Shown: positions 16,591 to 21,509 of the stretch, piece by piece
Layout of the letters: every line of letters begins with the position of its first letter
Numbering within the stretch: the first letter of the stretch is position 1
Origin: Serinicoccus chungangensis
Lineage (GTDB): Bacteria; Actinomycetota; Actinomycetes; Actinomycetales; Dermatophilaceae
Direction of reading: 5' to 3'
Assembly (NCBI RefSeq): GCF_001483745.1
Contig: NZ_LQBL01000027.1
Span: 1-64,000 of the forward strand
Length of the DNA stretch: 64,000 nucleotides
The notes under the pieces: model-generated
The model's input: the letters and a program-made list of their open reading frames with translations, nothing else
Told to the model about the DNA's origin: nothing
The model's database searches: none
Program-made: the position numbers and the translations under genes

Positions 16591-17451
16591 TCAGAGCGGG
16601 ATGACGGTGACCCCGAGCAGCCAGGCCATCAGCTGGCTTCCGGCCGTCAGGACGAACGAGCCGAGGAGCAGGACGGCGAAGCCGTAGCCGCCCGAGGACC
16701 GCTGCTGTGGTGCGGGCACCCGGTGGTCGCGCCACCCGCCCTCCTCCCAGATCGCCCAGGCCAGCACCCCCAGGCCCGCGGGCAGGCCGATGAGCCAGAA
16801 CCAGAACCACCGGGTGCCATGGACCGGGGCGGCTCCGAAGACCACCCGCACCAGCATGCTGACGACCAGCACCAGGCCGAGCAGACCGTGCGCCTGCAGG
16901 ACCCGCCCCGGGACCACCGAGGAGACCGTGGACGGCAGCCCGCTCGTCACGAGATCCTCCTCGATCCAGTCCACCTCGGCCTCCGTCCAGGACCCCCAGC
17001 TGTTCATGCTGGGGGTGATGTGGTCCGGCACCACCAGGCGCGGGCGCGAGCCGGCCACGGTGTAGAGCACGGTGGTCGTGCCGGTCCGCAGGTCCTCCAC
17101 GGAGCCCGGCTCGAGGTCCTCCTGTGTCCACCACCCGGGGGTGGAGGAGCCGCCGCCGGGTCGGTCCTCCACCAAGGCGTAGCTGGTCATCCTCCCGGAC
17201 GACAGGTCCTCCACGGCCTGGCTGTGGTTGACCATCTGGAAGCCACCCACGAGCGACAGCAGCGCGTGGGTGGCCCACAGCAGCACCACCGCGACGCCGG
17301 CGACCCGGCGGGCCCACCGCCTGAACCGCGCGTCACGGGCGTCGGGGCCGGTCCTGCCGCCCGGCATCGTCTCGGGCTCGACGAGCGGGGCACGACCCCG
17401 TGCCCGCCCGTCCTCGGCCGTCCCGCGTCCCACGTCTCGTTCCCGCCCCAT
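16591..17451 (-). CDS. Unknown multi-pass membrane protein
   Basis: 286 residues. Not recognised. An Arg-rich cytosolic N-terminus (~48 residues) is followed by a TM segment (VAGVAVVLLWATHALLSLVG). An extracytoplasmic domain of ~100 residues with several Trp (residues ~75-165) comes next, then four hydrophobic segments, including LLGLVLVVSMLVRVVFGAAP and WFWFWLIGLPAGLGVLAWAI. The strand was chosen because this frame has clean alternating membrane segments, while the opposite open frame is a low-complexity shadow. The start is uncertain: an internal ATG (residue 29, MPGGRTGP) is an alternative. It is convergent with the MFS gene and divergent from aspS. Confidence 0.65.
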   Translation of the reverse strand: MGRERDVGRGTAEDGRARGRAPLVEPETMPGGRTGPDARDARFRRWARRVAGVAVVLLWATHALLSLVGGFQMVNHSQAVEDLSSGRMTSYALVEDRPGGGSSTPGWWTQEDLEPGSVEDLRTGTTTVLYTVAGSRPRLVVPDHITPSMNSWGSWTEAEVDWIEEDLVTSGLPSTVSSVVPGRVLQAHGLLGLVLVVSMLVRVVFGAAPVHGTRWFWFWLIGLPAGLGVLAWAIWEEGGWRDHRVPAPQQRSSGGYGFAVLLLGSFVLTAGSQLMAWLLGVTVIPL

Positions 17452-17529
17452 GCCTCAGGGTGACACGGCAACCCGACCGCAGCAGATCGACGCGCACGTT
17501 CGCGTGTCGGGCGGCCCCGCACCGACCCG

Positions 17530-17535
17530 TAGAAT
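17530..17535 (+). promoter_or_regulatory. -10 element (TAGAAT) for the aspS leader
   Basis: TAGAAT is a good TANNNT -10 box. It would place the transcript start near 17542, just before the structured leader. The -35 region is unclear. Confidence 0.55.
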
Positions 17536-17540
17536 GATCC

Positions 17541-17783
17541 CGTTCCCGGGGCGGAGTGACGACCCGCCGGGGTGGACGAGGAGCGAGGCGCAGGCATACC
17601 TCGTGACCGTGACACCCGCCCGGAGCCGCGCGTCCGGCGACACCGACGAGAGGCCGAGGTCCCCTCGGCGAAGGTGTGGTGGCACCGCGACCTGGCCCCC
17701 GCCCACACCTCCCGGGCTGCCTTGGCGGGCCCGGGTCGTCGCATCGACAGACCCTCCGGCGCGCCGCACCGAGAGGAGAGATC
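17541..17783 (+). promoter_or_regulatory. Probable T-box riboswitch (Asp-type) in the aspS leader
   Basis: The 332-nt gap before aspS holds a T-box-like leader. The core is GGTGGCACCGCG: an 8-bp helix AGGTGTGG (17672-17679) / CCACACCT (17703-17710) encloses a TGGCACC bulge (17680-17686) and a GCG/CGC upper helix, which is the antiterminator/antisequestrator architecture. The UGGC tRNA-pairing bases fit a G73 discriminator such as tRNA-Asp (Ile would need UGGU). A stem III-like hairpin GCCGAG/CTCGGC lies just upstream (~17653-17669). Candidate GAC specifier codons are at 17605 and 17611. CCTCC at 17708-17712 could pair with the GAGGAG ribosome site, suggesting translational control; a 7-bp CCCGGGC/GCCCGGG hairpin (17711-17735) lacks a U-run. 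Confidence 0.75.
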
Positions 17784-19577
17784 ATGCTTCGCACCCACGA
17801 GTCGGGCACCCTGCGGCCCGAGCACGTCGGCCAGTCCGTCACCCTCACTGGCTGGGTGGCCCGACGCCGCGACCACGGTGGCGTCGCCTTCATCGACCTG
17901 CGGGACGCCAGCGGCGTCGTGCAGGTCGTCGCGCGCGACGAGGTCCTCACGGGCACCGCTCACGACCTGCGCAGCGAGTACTGCGTGAAGGTCGTCGGCG
18001 AGGTCACCGCCCGCGCCGAGAAGGACGTCAACCCCGAGCTGCCGACCGGCGGCGTCGACGTCGTGGCCAGCGAGATCGAGGTGCTCAGCGCCTCGGCCCC
18101 GCTGCCCTTCCAGATCGACGAGCGGGTCAGCGTCGGCGAGGAGGCGCGCCTGCGCCACCGCTACCTGGACCTGCGACGTCCCGGAGCCGGCGCGGCGGGT
18201 CAGAACCTGCGGCTGCGCTCGCGGGTCAACGCGGCCGCCCGCACCGTGCTCGCCGAGCGCGACTTCGTCGAGGTCGAGACCCCCACCCTGACGCGGTCGA
18301 CGCCGGAGGGCGCCCGTGACTTCCTCGTGCCGGCGCGCCTGCAGCCGGGCAGCTGGTACGCCCTGCCGCAGAGCCCGCAGCTGTTCAAGCAGCTGCTCAT
18401 GGTCGCCGGGATGGAGCGCTACTACCAGATCGCCCGGTGCTACCGCGACGAGGACTTCCGCGCCGACCGGCAGCCGGAGTTCACCCAGCTCGACATCGAG
18501 ATGAGCTTCGTGGAGCAGGACGACGTCATCGAGCTCGGCGAGGCGGTCGCGGCGGAGGTGTGGCGCACCATCGGGGTCGAGCTCACCACGCCCTTCCCGC
18601 GGATGACGTATGCCGAGGCCATGCGGCGGTACGGCTCGGACAAGCCGGACCTGCGTTTCGGTGTGGAGCTGGTCGAGTGCACCGACTACTTCGCCGACAC
18701 GCCGTTCCGGGTGTTCCAGGCGGAGTACGTCGGTGCGGTCGTCATGCCCGGTGGGGGCAGCCAGCCTCGTCGTCAGTTCGACGCCTGGCAGGAGTGGGCC
18801 AAGCAGCGCGGGGCCAAGGGTCTGGCCTACGTCACCGTCGGCGACGACGGGACGCTGGGTGGGCCGGTGGCGAAGAACCTCTCGGACGCCGAGCGCGAGG
18901 GTCTGGCGGCGCACGTGGGCGCCGAGCCGGGTGACTGCGTCTTCTTCGCCGCCGGGGCGACCAAGCCCTCCCGTGCCCTCCTGGGCGCGGCCCGGCAGGA
19001 GATCGCCGAGCGCGTGGGTCTGGTGGACGAGGACGCCTGGAGCTTCCTGTGGGTCGTCGACGCGCCGCTCTTCGAGCCGGCCGGGGACGCCATCGCGGCG
19101 GGCGACGTCGCGGTGGGTGCCGGCGCCTGGACCGCCGTGCACCACGCCTTCACCTCGCCCAAGGCGGAGTTCCTGGACTCCCTCGAGGAGGACCCGGGCG
19201 CTGCGCTGGCCTACGCCTACGACCTGGTCTGCAACGGCAACGAGATAGGGGGTGGGTCCATCCGTATCCACCGCCGCGACGTGCAGGAGCGGGTCTTCGC
19301 GATCATGGGCCTGTCCCCGGAGCAGGCGCAGGAGAAGTTCGGGTTCCTGCTGGAGGCGTTCAAGTTCGGCGCACCGCCGCACGGTGGGATCGCCTTCGGG
19401 TGGGACCGCATCGTCGCGCTCCTGGCCGGCACCGACTCGATTCGCGACGTCATCGCCTTCCCCAAGTCCGGCGGCGGCTTCGACCCGCTGACCGCGGCGC
19501 CGGCGCCCATCACGCCCGAGCAGCGCAAGGAGGCGGGTGTGGACGCCGAGCCCGAGGAGGAGGGCGTCACGGCCTGA
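17784..19577 (+). CDS. aspS: Aspartyl-tRNA synthetase
   Basis: 597-residue class IIb synthetase of the bacterial type. The N-terminal OB anticodon-binding domain (residues 1-110) contains [20 protein letters not shown]. Motif 2 is [20 protein letters not shown] and motif 3 is [21 protein letters not shown] bacterial GAD insertion lies at about residues 285-425. The ATG was chosen because GAGAGGAG (17771-17778) precedes it. The last ~20 residues are an acidic tail. Whether it is discriminating or also charges tRNA-Asn cannot be decided here. A T-box-like leader upstream would tie expression to uncharged tRNA-Asp. Confidence 0.96.
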
Positions 19578-19730: not shown

Positions 19731-21449
19731 TCAGGGAGGCGCCGGAGCTGCCGTTCCGGCGGCCGACCCGGAGCGGTCCCGGGTGGTGACCGTCTGATGG
19801 TGGACCTGGGCCGTGACGGTCGGTCGGCGGGCTCCGGTGCTGGCCGTCGAGAGGCGGCCGTCGGCGGTGCCCGACGAGATCCTCGGCAGCACTGCACCCG
19901 GGCGGAGGTAGAGGGTCGGCGGCACGGCGGTCTGCCGCGGCCGCTCCCGCCCCTGGTTGCACCGCTGGCACAGCCCCTGACCGTTGTGGATCGACGTGGC
20001 ACCGCCGTCACGGTGCCGCACGCGGTGGTCGACGTGCCGGATGGGCGCCCCGCACCACGGGGTCCGGCAGTAGCGGTCTCGGCTGACGATCAGTGCCCGC
20101 TGGGCCTCGCTGAAGAATCGTCGCCGGGTTTCCCGCGCGAAGACCTCCCCGGTGAGCGGGTCGGCGTAGAGGCGACGGACGAAGACCCGGGCGGCGGCCA
20201 CGTCGGCGGCGTCGGGAGGGGCAGTGGGGTGCATCCCCGGACCGACGGACGGGTGTGCGCCCGGCCCCCTGGCTCGCATCGGGGGCGACGTGGGTCCGCC
20301 CACGCCCGGCCCCGGGGCTCCCACCGGGGGCGATGTGGGTCTGCCCGGCGACGCAGCTGTGCCACCTGAGGCACCTGAGGCACCTGAGGCACCGTGGACC
20401 AGCGGGCACGACCAGGCCGGGCAGCGCGGCCCGTCCGGACAGACGTCGTCGCCAGACCGGCCGCGGGTCGCCGGATCCGGCACGTCAGCGGTCTCGGCAG
20501 GTCCCGTCGGAGCCGGCGGGTCGACCGCTCGCCCCGGCGGGGGCGTCAGCAGGTCGCGCGCCGCCTGCGCGGGGAGGGGGCCGTACCCGTCGAGGAAGGC
20601 CGCCACGGTGTCGCCGCCCATGAGCGAGGCGTCGGTCATGACGAGGCTGAGGTCGATGTCGGGCAGGGAGACGGGGTCACGCCCGGTGACCTTGGCATAG
20701 AGCGTGTCGGCCATGATCCTGCCCTGGCTGCGCTCGTCCCCCGAGGCCCTCAGCAGCTCGGCGTGCCGCTTGAGCGCGGCGTAGACCGCAACCCCCTGGG
20801 CCGCCGGCAGCATCGCGGAGATGACGCACATGACGTCCGGCGCGGGGCGCATCGAGACGTAGGCGTCCTCGGCGGCCCTGGCCGCCCGCCGCACGTGCGC
20901 CTGCGGGTCCAGCTCGTAGACGAGGGCGGTCACCGTGGCGCGCAGCTGTCTCGTGGACAGTCCGGCGAGGCGACCCACGAGCTGCTCGTCGACGAGCCGA
21001 CGGTCCTGGGTCGACAGGCAGGTCGTGGCGCGGGTGACGACCTCGGCCTGGTGGGCGTCGATGACGCCCTCCGTGAGAGCGGCCAGGGTGCGGGGCATCT
21101 CCCGGGCCAACGCCCGCGAGCAGGCCAGGCGGTTCGAGGACCGGGCAGGGGAGACCTTGCCCGCGAGGGCGAGGTCGTCCGCGACCCCCGACCCGAGACG
21201 TGCGGCGGCGACCCCGTCGGCCTCCTGCTGCTGCCTCTGGGACCGGTCGAACTCGTCCGAGAGGACGGCGTGCGCCGCCGCGGACGCGCGGTTGAGGTCC
21301 TCCAACGCACGGATGAGCTCGAGGCGCTCGGCGTCCGACGCGTCCGGGCGCGGGAGCGCGAGGCGTCCGGCCAGTGCGCGGATCTCGGCTCGCCCCGCCG
21401 GATGGTCTACGTCCGCCGACCTCCGCGTCGGTGTCGTCGATGTCGCCAC
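19731..21449 (-). CDS. DUF222 / HNH endonuclease-type protein (13E12 repeat family)
   Basis: About 572 residues. The N-terminal two-thirds is the DUF222 helical domain (RAEIRALAGRLALPRPDASD through MADTLYAKVTGRDPVSLPDI). A ~120-residue Pro/Gly/Ser linker with internal repeats follows, then a C-terminal HNH domain: CRTPWCGAPIRHVDHRVRHR, then NGQGLCQRCNQGRE with the two Cys pairs. The GTG at 21449 is preferred over upstream in-frame GTG 21494 or ATG 21485, because both of those precede the predicted transcription start and GAGGGGG (21464-21458) lies 8 nt upstream. It is preceded by a LexA-box promoter. M. tuberculosis 13E12 genes are known LexA targets. Not a phage terminase HNH. Biochemical role unknown. 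Confidence 0.8.
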   Translation of the reverse strand: MATSTTPTRRSADVDHPAGRAEIRALAGRLALPRPDASDAERLELIRALEDLNRASAAAHAVLSDEFDRSQRQQQEADGVAAARLGSGVADDLALAGKVSPARSSNRLACSRALAREMPRTLAALTEGVIDAHQAEVVTRATTCLSTQDRRLVDEQLVGRLAGLSTRQLRATVTALVYELDPQAHVRRAARAAEDAYVSMRPAPDVMCVISAMLPAAQGVAVYAALKRHAELLRASGDERSQGRIMADTLYAKVTGRDPVSLPDIDLSLVMTDASLMGGDTVAAFLDGYGPLPAQAARDLLTPPPGRAVDPPAPTGPAETADVPDPATRGRSGDDVCPDGPRCPAWSCPLVHGASGASGASGGTAASPGRPTSPPVGAPGPGVGGPTSPPMRARGPGAHPSVGPGMHPTAPPDAADVAAARVFVRRLYADPLTGEVFARETRRRFFSEAQRALIVSRDRYCRTPWCGAPIRHVDHRVRHRDGGATSIHNGQGLCQRCNQGRERPRQTAVPPTLYLRPGAVLPRISSGTADGRLSTASTGARRPTVTAQVHHQTVTTRDRSGSAAGTAAPAPP

Positions 21450-21480
21450 GTTCCCCACCCCCTCGATGGTTGCTGAGACC

Positions 21481-21509
21481 AGCATATCGAACACGCGTTC
21501 GATTCGTCA
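21481..21509 (-). promoter_or_regulatory. LexA (SOS) box inside the promoter of the DUF222/HNH gene
   Basis: On the reverse strand TTGACG (-35, 21509-21504) and TATGCT (-10, 21486-21481) are 17 nt apart. The spacer holds a perfect actinobacterial SOS box TCGAAC-N4-GTTCGA (21487-21502). Transcription would begin near 21474. This predicts LexA repression and DNA-damage induction of the gene. Confidence 0.8.

Follow-up and report, generated by a model that had tools for sequence, protein, structure and literature searches.

The available text of PMC1262725, PMC7583486 and PMC10651847 describes actinobacterial T-boxes in front of ileS. In these elements C14 lies in the apical loop of Stem I (PMC10651847) with the specifier nearby, at positions 16–18 in the numbering of PMC7583486, and a short Stem I with its specifier close to the apical loop is already known for ileS. 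As far as the available text of PMC7583486 goes, the general T-box signature is 5'-RRRxG-stem III-AA-3', a Stem II with S-turn is an optional module, and a G·U pair ending helix A2 is the primary steric sensor. The original prediction for the locus studied here regarded actinobacterial T-boxes as being described mainly for ileS, which agrees with the consulted portions of PMC1262725 and PMC2494555 but is too narrow, in that PMC9413887 includes a T-box of the his operon of Corynebacterium glutamicum and T-boxes controlling various synthetase genes in Actinobacteria and Firmicutes. In the portion of PMC2494555 that gives counts, 32 T-boxes are recorded in 12 of 19 actinobacterial genomes, 18 of them in Symbiobacterium alone, which leaves a few actinobacterial T-boxes unaccounted for. 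According to the available text of PMC7778990, GAC makes up 94% of Asp specifiers in the T-box database TBDB, and a translational model was used to search Actinobacteria, so that some of the loci found here may be listed there already. Our literature search, mostly at abstract level, found no Asp T-box of Actinobacteria.

Results

The aspS locus

The window is the whole 64,000-nucleotide stretch of DNA that was analyzed; its source genome (G000) comprises 3.56 Mb in 33 contigs. On the plus strand, aspS (17784..19577) encodes an aspartate–tRNA ligase (AspRS) of 597 aa, which is of the bacterial type as judged by NF001750 (838 bits, cut-off 443) and also exceeds the cut-off of TIGR00459 (696 bits). 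Among the matches listed, the nearest AspRS genes in named records belong to uncultured Serinicoccus isolates (98% identity; loci L090 and L130). An unassigned reading frame on the opposite strand starts at 17451 and, if this is a gene, the aspS leader lies 3' of a divergent intergenic stretch. A probable −10 element, TAGAAT (17530..17535, plus strand), was picked out by a regular expression for the hexamer upstream of leaders; by the same means TAGACT, TAGAAT, TAGGAT or TACACT was found 5' of each of 18 same-genus leaders. A generic sigma-70 scan found no promoter at the aspS leader, and a scan of 17452–17900 found no intrinsic-terminator-like site. On the minus strand, the window also holds a reading frame of 587 aa (19731–21494), the C-terminal part of which presumably resembles an HNH-type (13E12-repeat-like) protein.

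Structure of the leader

The putative T-box, counted from 17542 to where the antisequestrator ends, measures 168 nt, and all its parts lie on the plus strand. An enclosing helix (17542..17626; 17542–17545 with 17623–17626 and 17547–17549 with 17620–17622), predicted by RNAalifold with its letters placed by eye, surrounds a specifier hairpin and a variable hairpin. In the RNAalifold consensus of the 18 leaders it corresponds to columns 9–13 and 17–18 paired with 89–96; one of its pairs is GC in 14 leaders, UG in 3 and UA in 1, and another is broken in 5 of the 18. The specifier hairpin, GGCGG-AGUGACGAC-CCGCC (17550..17568), is a miniature Stem I supported by stem covariation over 38 distinct hairpins. 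Its 9-nt loop holds the putative specifier GAC (17558..17560), preceded by U at 17557 and followed by the purine G at 17561, and UGACG is invariant across the 18 leaders. The original prediction had pointed to GAC triplets at a plausible specifier position; both are present and the first is conserved, but the second (17561–17563) is GCC or GAU in L032–L035 and L038 and was ruled out as the specifier.

A pseudoknot resembling Stem IIA/B was placed at 17626..17648 by a motif-anchored script, with CGC 17627–17629 facing GCG 17637–17639 and CGU 17631–17633 facing ACG 17646–17648. The IIA pairs can form in 53 of 55 loci and the IIB pairs in 49 of 55, and these positions are mostly invariant and hence say little about pairing; the single double change is at CGU/ACG in L116. 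RNAalifold draws a plain hairpin here instead (CGU.CGG/CCG.ACG), which L142 and L156 disrupt while retaining IIA. Most columns being invariant, our preference for the pseudoknot is tentative. In three same-genus leaders (L032, L034 and L035) an additional hairpin-like insert separates the two arms.

The next segment (17648..17672) consists of the purine string GAGAG, Stem III (17653–17659 with 17663–17669) and the linker GAA, and fits the RRRxG-stem III-AA signature. GAGAG and AA are invariant in 18 of 18 same-genus leaders, whereas Stem III pairs are altered on both sides, i.e. show compensating changes, in the RNAalifold consensus. The antisequestrator follows at 17673..17709, with its letters checked: helix A1 (17673–17679 with 17703–17709), the bulge UGGCACC (17680–17686) and helix A2 (17687–17689 with 17700–17702), supported by covariation in 41 relatives. 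It contains GGTGGCACCGCG at 17678–17689, and the claim of a perfect antiterminator/antisequestrator fold held as to place and quality of folding but not as to standard form, because A1 of window-type elements has 7–8 bp and A2 starts with G–C instead of G·U. Duplex energy yielded a candidate sequestrator (17708..17776) in which CCUCCCGG (17708–17715) pairs with CCGAGAGG (17769–17776) with one C·A mismatch; it shares bases with the A1 3' strand and with the Shine–Dalgarno sequence AGGAG (17774–17778). CCTCC occurs at 17708–17712 and again at 17753–17757.

Across the 18-leader alignment the order is a TAGACT-like hexamer, the enclosing helix, the specifier hairpin, the variable hairpin, CCGCGCGUCCGG..CCGACGAGAG, Stem III and AA, after which the 3' end reads AGGUGUGG-UGGCACC-GCG..CGC-CCACACCU. 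AGTAGA, taken as the sign of a Stem II with S-turn, is absent from the 63 loci classed as miniature (see below), and the miniature form gives no sign of the upper Stem I that binds the tRNA elbow. In L151, only ~12 nt separate the hairpin from IIA/B.

Conservation in the genus

The window AspRS was strongly matched in 37 of 38 genomes; the match in G009 was in two pieces and that in G005 reached only E 1.6e-12. Thirty aspS loci were examined, namely L021–L038 (the own genome plus 17 others of its genus), L039–L042 (same genus) and L043–L050 (other families). TGGCACC was found 89–111 nt 5' of the start in all 18 leaders L021–L038, and the aspS-leader alignment showed the motif and the GAC to be conserved, as originally anticipated: mean column identity over alignment A1 of these leaders is 60%, while the antisequestrator is almost invariant. 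A 420-nt scan of L039–L050 for TGGNACC gave only two unrelated sites (L042 and L046), and the element is absent there. The aspS start codon is GTG in L039–L042 as against ATG in L021–L038.

The element was further found in the same-genus genome G005 (L291) by R1, a covariance model built on the 3' half, which gave no hit in G013, G016, G021 and G023 (the genomes of L039–L042) or in G009, a genome of 74% completeness that was assessed with this model. The element was thus found in 19 of 24 same-genus genomes and not found in 5; one more same-genus genome with the element, G390, came from the order draw described below. L291 and L138, the latter from a record titled Acidobacteria bacterium ATN4, are identical over 230 bases around the T-box, so the ATN4 contig is probably misbinned actinobacterial DNA.

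Relatives and the genes behind them

A search of named genome records with a pattern for the 3' half returned at least 119 stretches, of which 80 were kept; the counts that follow are not frequencies, and the bulge and the greater part of A1 were prescribed by the pattern. Among the matches listed, the gene behind these 80 loci is aspS2 (archaeal-type AspRS) in 68, aspS1 (bacterial-type) in 7 and neither in 5. The aspS1 loci among these matches are all from Ornithinimicrobium or Serinicoccus. Of the loci lacking an AspRS gene among the matches listed, L112 and L138 lie near the end of their stretch and L116 had no match; pattern loci L086 and L124 appear to have matched by chance.

Model R1, whose training set consisted largely of such pattern loci, separates matches of at least 48 bits from a background below 39 bits. 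Strong matches were obtained in 23 of 396 order genomes and 23 of 394 class genomes (4 genomes common to both draws), and 3 of 396 phylum genomes matched at E ≤ 1e-6, all 3 inside the class; searches over more than 40 genomes used stricter filters, with which weak matches can be lost. Among 27 model loci tested, window included, the gene behind is aspS2 in 19, aspS1 in 7 and neither in 1; fifteen of the 42 strong model loci were instead inspected by eye. The seven aspS1 loci comprise two from the genus (the window and L223) and 5 that belong to three further genera of the family. One full-length relative, a long T-box in G130 (L065), combines GAAGAC with the unusual 3' half seen here and is located upstream of an archaeal-type aspartate–tRNA(Asn) ligase gene that scores 525 bits with NF003483 (above cut-off) and 339 bits with TIGR00458 (below cut-off).

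The window AspRS was then compared with 38 of the 42 strong-match genomes, the own genome, G043, G050 and G625 being left out, and 37 matched at E ≤ 1e-25. By position, the matched gene is the one that follows the T-box in 6 genomes and a separate gene of 69–83% identity in 30; in G587 the match has 45% identity. Because 30 genomes carry a separate AspRS gene, the usual arrangement where tested, as read from gene positions, is a T-box on AspRS2 beside a housekeeping AspRS, and genomes with a T-box-controlled archaeal-type AspRS accordingly also have the housekeeping enzyme. On the same reading, a T-box on the main AspRS is a special case of some genera of the family. G253 carries the element twice, at C1:42501-42573 and C1:404188-404260, with 77.9 bits each. 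L249 in G625 matches the model strongly (63.7 bits) and has neither a recognizable specifier nor a downstream match to AspRS; it is perhaps a decayed or re-used copy.

Two 5' forms and covariation

Regular expressions divided 129 distinct loci (of 138) into 52 with the canonical GAAGAC form, 63 with the miniature hairpin and 14 with neither. The canonical class is defined by GAAGAC and has A before its GAC by construction; L156 was counted in it through a chance GAAGAC and bears the miniature hairpin, so that 51 of the 52 stand, and for L127 the hairpin reported by the script is not the correct one. The miniature-hairpin rule was satisfied by 68 of 3150 dinucleotide shuffles. When no triplet was required, 59 of the 74 non-canonical loci had GAC as the central triplet of a 9-nt loop with four or more closing pairs; the runner-up was GGC (20/74). 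Full-Stem I relatives likewise carry GAC.

Stem covariation was scored on 38 distinct hairpins (alignment A5, which leaves out L100, L110, L129, L249, L101, L136, L141 and repeated sequences), each chosen as the best stem around UGAC-purine. Stem cells were paired in 92.1% of 152 cases versus 74.3% in shuffles, and 25 cells carried double changes versus 6.4 in shuffles (0/500 as high); by number of pairs having a double change, 3 versus 2.3 with 206/500 as high, the hairpin is not outstanding. For A1/A2, scored on 41 distinct relatives from model-found loci only, 100% of 409 cells were paired, with 24 double-change cells versus 5.2 in shuffles (0/500 as high) and 4 pairs having a double change versus 2.2 (14/500 as high). 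These shuffles do not keep relatedness; slid controls do, and are far lower for both the hairpin and A1/A2.

The first A2 pair is G–C in 41 of 41 relatives, as found with a model trained on G–C examples, and the usual G·U is absent. For comparison, of 30 RF00230-matched loci 22 have CGU, the G·U form, and 2 have CGG, with 6 unreadable by the script; the readable ones are all UGGU. We treat G–C in place of G·U as a variant trait and not as a defining one. L074, a T-box with UGGU, shows by eye the triplet AUC in the 6-nt loop of a hairpin (GAGG-CCAUCA-CCUU); its Stem I may have been drastically shortened in an independent event.

Complementarity to tRNA-Asp

The tRNA-Asp of the own genome (L205), identified with ARAGORN, has the anticodon loop CUGUCAC and, by reading of the sequence, G73. 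The leader could meet it at both ends: the loop GUGAC is complementary to G34-U35-C36-A37-C38, and the bulge UGGC can pair with the GCCA end, its variable base C fitting G73 as originally claimed. Among 30 genomes searched at the sequence level for tRNA-Asp-like stretches, CUGUCAC was found in 22, CUGUCAA in 2 (G130 and G599, both with the full form) and none in 6.

Under a rule permitting any base, the base 5' of GAC was U in 67 of 74 non-canonical loci. Of the other seven, L116, L120, L218 and L226 have a chance hairpin that hides the UGAC one, and L100, L129 and L249 lack it. Alignment A5 has G as the base preceding U-GAC in 27 of its 38 distinct hairpins. We infer that the U before GAC pairs with A37. 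Specificity for tRNA-Asp is supported by the conserved GAC and purine, the bulge C fitting G73 and the aspartate–tRNA ligase gene (NF001750) downstream, and the aspS leader is, as predicted, very probably a genuine tRNA-Asp T-box.

Step of control

The original prediction took pairing of CCTCC with the ribosome site as a sign of translational control. In 43 other miniature leaders, pairing of the A1 3' strand and the next bases with the Shine–Dalgarno region averaged −17.4 kcal/mol versus −8.2 for shuffled Shine–Dalgarno regions, and rank 10 of 200 or better was reached by 36 of these 43, by 26 of 49 full-form and by 9 of 14 unclear leaders. Computed freedom of the Shine–Dalgarno sequence with the antisequestrator increased by over 0.1 in 33 of the 43 (down in 1) and in 30 of 48 full-form leaders (down in 3). 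The pairing is therefore well predicted in most miniature aspS2 relatives but weakly in the window leader and its genus: the window duplex, at −14.5 versus −10.8 on average for shuffles (rank 28 of 200), is suggestive only, and the 18 same-genus leaders averaged −12.4 versus −9.5, with rank 10 reached in 0 of 18 and freedom up by more than 0.1 in 4 and down in 1. The 43 include 8 same-family aspS1 leaders (L090, L130, L144, L206, L207, L208, L216 and L223), 6 of which miss rank 10, as do all 18 of this genus. By kinship, translational control is likely in the window leader as well; its longer spacer, with 74 nt from antisequestrator to start versus 23–35 in miniature aspS2 leaders, may accommodate a different masking helix.

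That unclear switch in the genus, together with the long spacer, would also suit a tRNA-Asp T-box acting on transcription, e.g. by Rho-dependent termination, and not on ribosome access. We regard this as unlikely, given the lack of an intrinsic-terminator-like site in the scanned region and the strong anti-Shine–Dalgarno complementarity of miniature aspS2 relatives that share the 3' half. The weak switch might alternatively betray a T-box that arrived before aspS in this lineage and has since lost its regulation, a view to which the 5 of 24 genomes without a detected element lend something. Decay is nevertheless quite improbable when the specifier, bulge and A1/A2 are almost invariant while the variable hairpins diverge.

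Autoregulation through anticodon-like mimicry is known for another synthetase, and an element standing before aspS or aspS2 could in principle be a conserved leader that binds AspRS itself and senses no tRNA. The loop, however, complements the anticodon loop rather than copying it, the UGGC bulge, purine string, Stem III and A1/A2 are T-box anatomy, and a full-length relative, L065, matches the T-box model RF00230 at 54 bits, all of which makes AspRS binding highly improbable.

Database models and chance

The covariance-model check proposed for the leader was negative: Rfam gave nothing at gathering in the window, RF00230 had no match at E ≤ 10 in the leader or the whole genome, and the only Rfam match in the leader at E ≤ 10 was to a chance microRNA model. 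In this group RF00230 makes an unreliable test: 70 of 118 class genomes match at E ≤ 1 but 0 reach the cut-off. As the motif and GAC are conserved, the absent model match leaves the prediction standing. The motif TGGNACCGCG occurs 64 times in the own genome versus 151 for a reversed-pattern control, and the leader folds with an ordinary energy (z −0.09). With a common motif and an ordinary energy, sequence and energy alone show nothing, and conservation is the evidence. Chance resemblance in GC-rich DNA, although in keeping with the motif count, the fold energy and the Rfam result, is contradicted by conservation and covariation and can practically be dismissed.

Discussion

We put a probability of about 0.88 on the whole account, in which the aspS leader is a miniature tRNA-Asp T-box, uncharged tRNA frees the Shine–Dalgarno sequence and low charging raises AspRS. 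Its basis is conservation, covariation of the hairpin and antisequestrator, complementarity to the genome's own tRNA-Asp at both ends, gene identity and the absence of a terminator-like site in the scan; from these we infer tRNA binding, sensitivity to charging and the translational step in the window leader. In the proposed mechanism the small hairpin loop would offer U-GAC-G to the anticodon loop of tRNA-Asp, and the pseudoknot-like element and Stem III would position the 3' half. The UGGC bulge would pair with the GCCA end of tRNA-Asp only if the tRNA is uncharged; binding of such a tRNA would keep the A1 3' strand in the antisequestrator and the Shine–Dalgarno sequence free, whereas with charged tRNA the strand would become available to mask it. 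Low charging of tRNA-Asp would thereby lead to more AspRS synthesis.

More tentatively, at somewhat less than even odds, these elements may form a subclass without elbow clamp or Stem II S-turn that reads 4–5 anticodon-loop bases (U-GAC with G34-U35-C36-A37, and G-U-GAC also with C38) and has G–C replacing the G·U charging sensor. Such a subclass would have been born on an inducible second AspRS, and in one lineage the housekeeping aspS would have passed under its control. Our mostly abstract-level search turned up no published account of Asp specificity with AspRS2 or AspRS genes in Actinobacteria, of a lost Stem II, of the U-GAC loop or of the G–C pair. The account would extend actinobacterial T-boxes from ileS and his genes to aspartate, and would add a group poorly recognized by the current Rfam model. 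A small natural T-box of this size, lacking parts regarded as important for binding tRNA tightly, raises the questions of what the T-box minimum is, whether A37 pairing can stand in for the S-turn and whether the A2 G·U is needed in amino-acid sensing.

The closest described systems are the translational ileS T-boxes of Nocardia farcinica and Mycobacterium tuberculosis, which, in the available text of PMC10651847 and PMC7583486, share with the window element a short Stem I, Stem III, the discriminator and their occurrence in Actinobacteria, and have a IIA/B pseudoknot and Shine–Dalgarno masking, of which the window element has candidate counterparts; they read tRNA-Ile and keep a Stem II with S-turn. 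Relative to them, the window element has GAC preceded by U, no sign of Stem II, a longer A1 and G–C for G·U at the A2 start. With the Asp T-boxes of TBDB, as far as the available text of PMC7778990 describes them, it shares the GAC specifier. Full-length Asp T-boxes found here upstream of aspS2, for instance in Micromonospora and Kribbella (L065 and 51 loci), resemble it in the UGGCACC 3' half, in GAC and, where tested, in the AspRS gene; they differ in a GAAGAC specifier context within a longer Stem I, and some keep an AGTAGA resembling the Stem II S-turn. A two-codon T-box on the transamidosome operon of Clostridium acetobutylicum senses aspartate and asparagine tRNAs beside an AspRS gene; it has two specifiers, whereas the window element has one conserved GAC.
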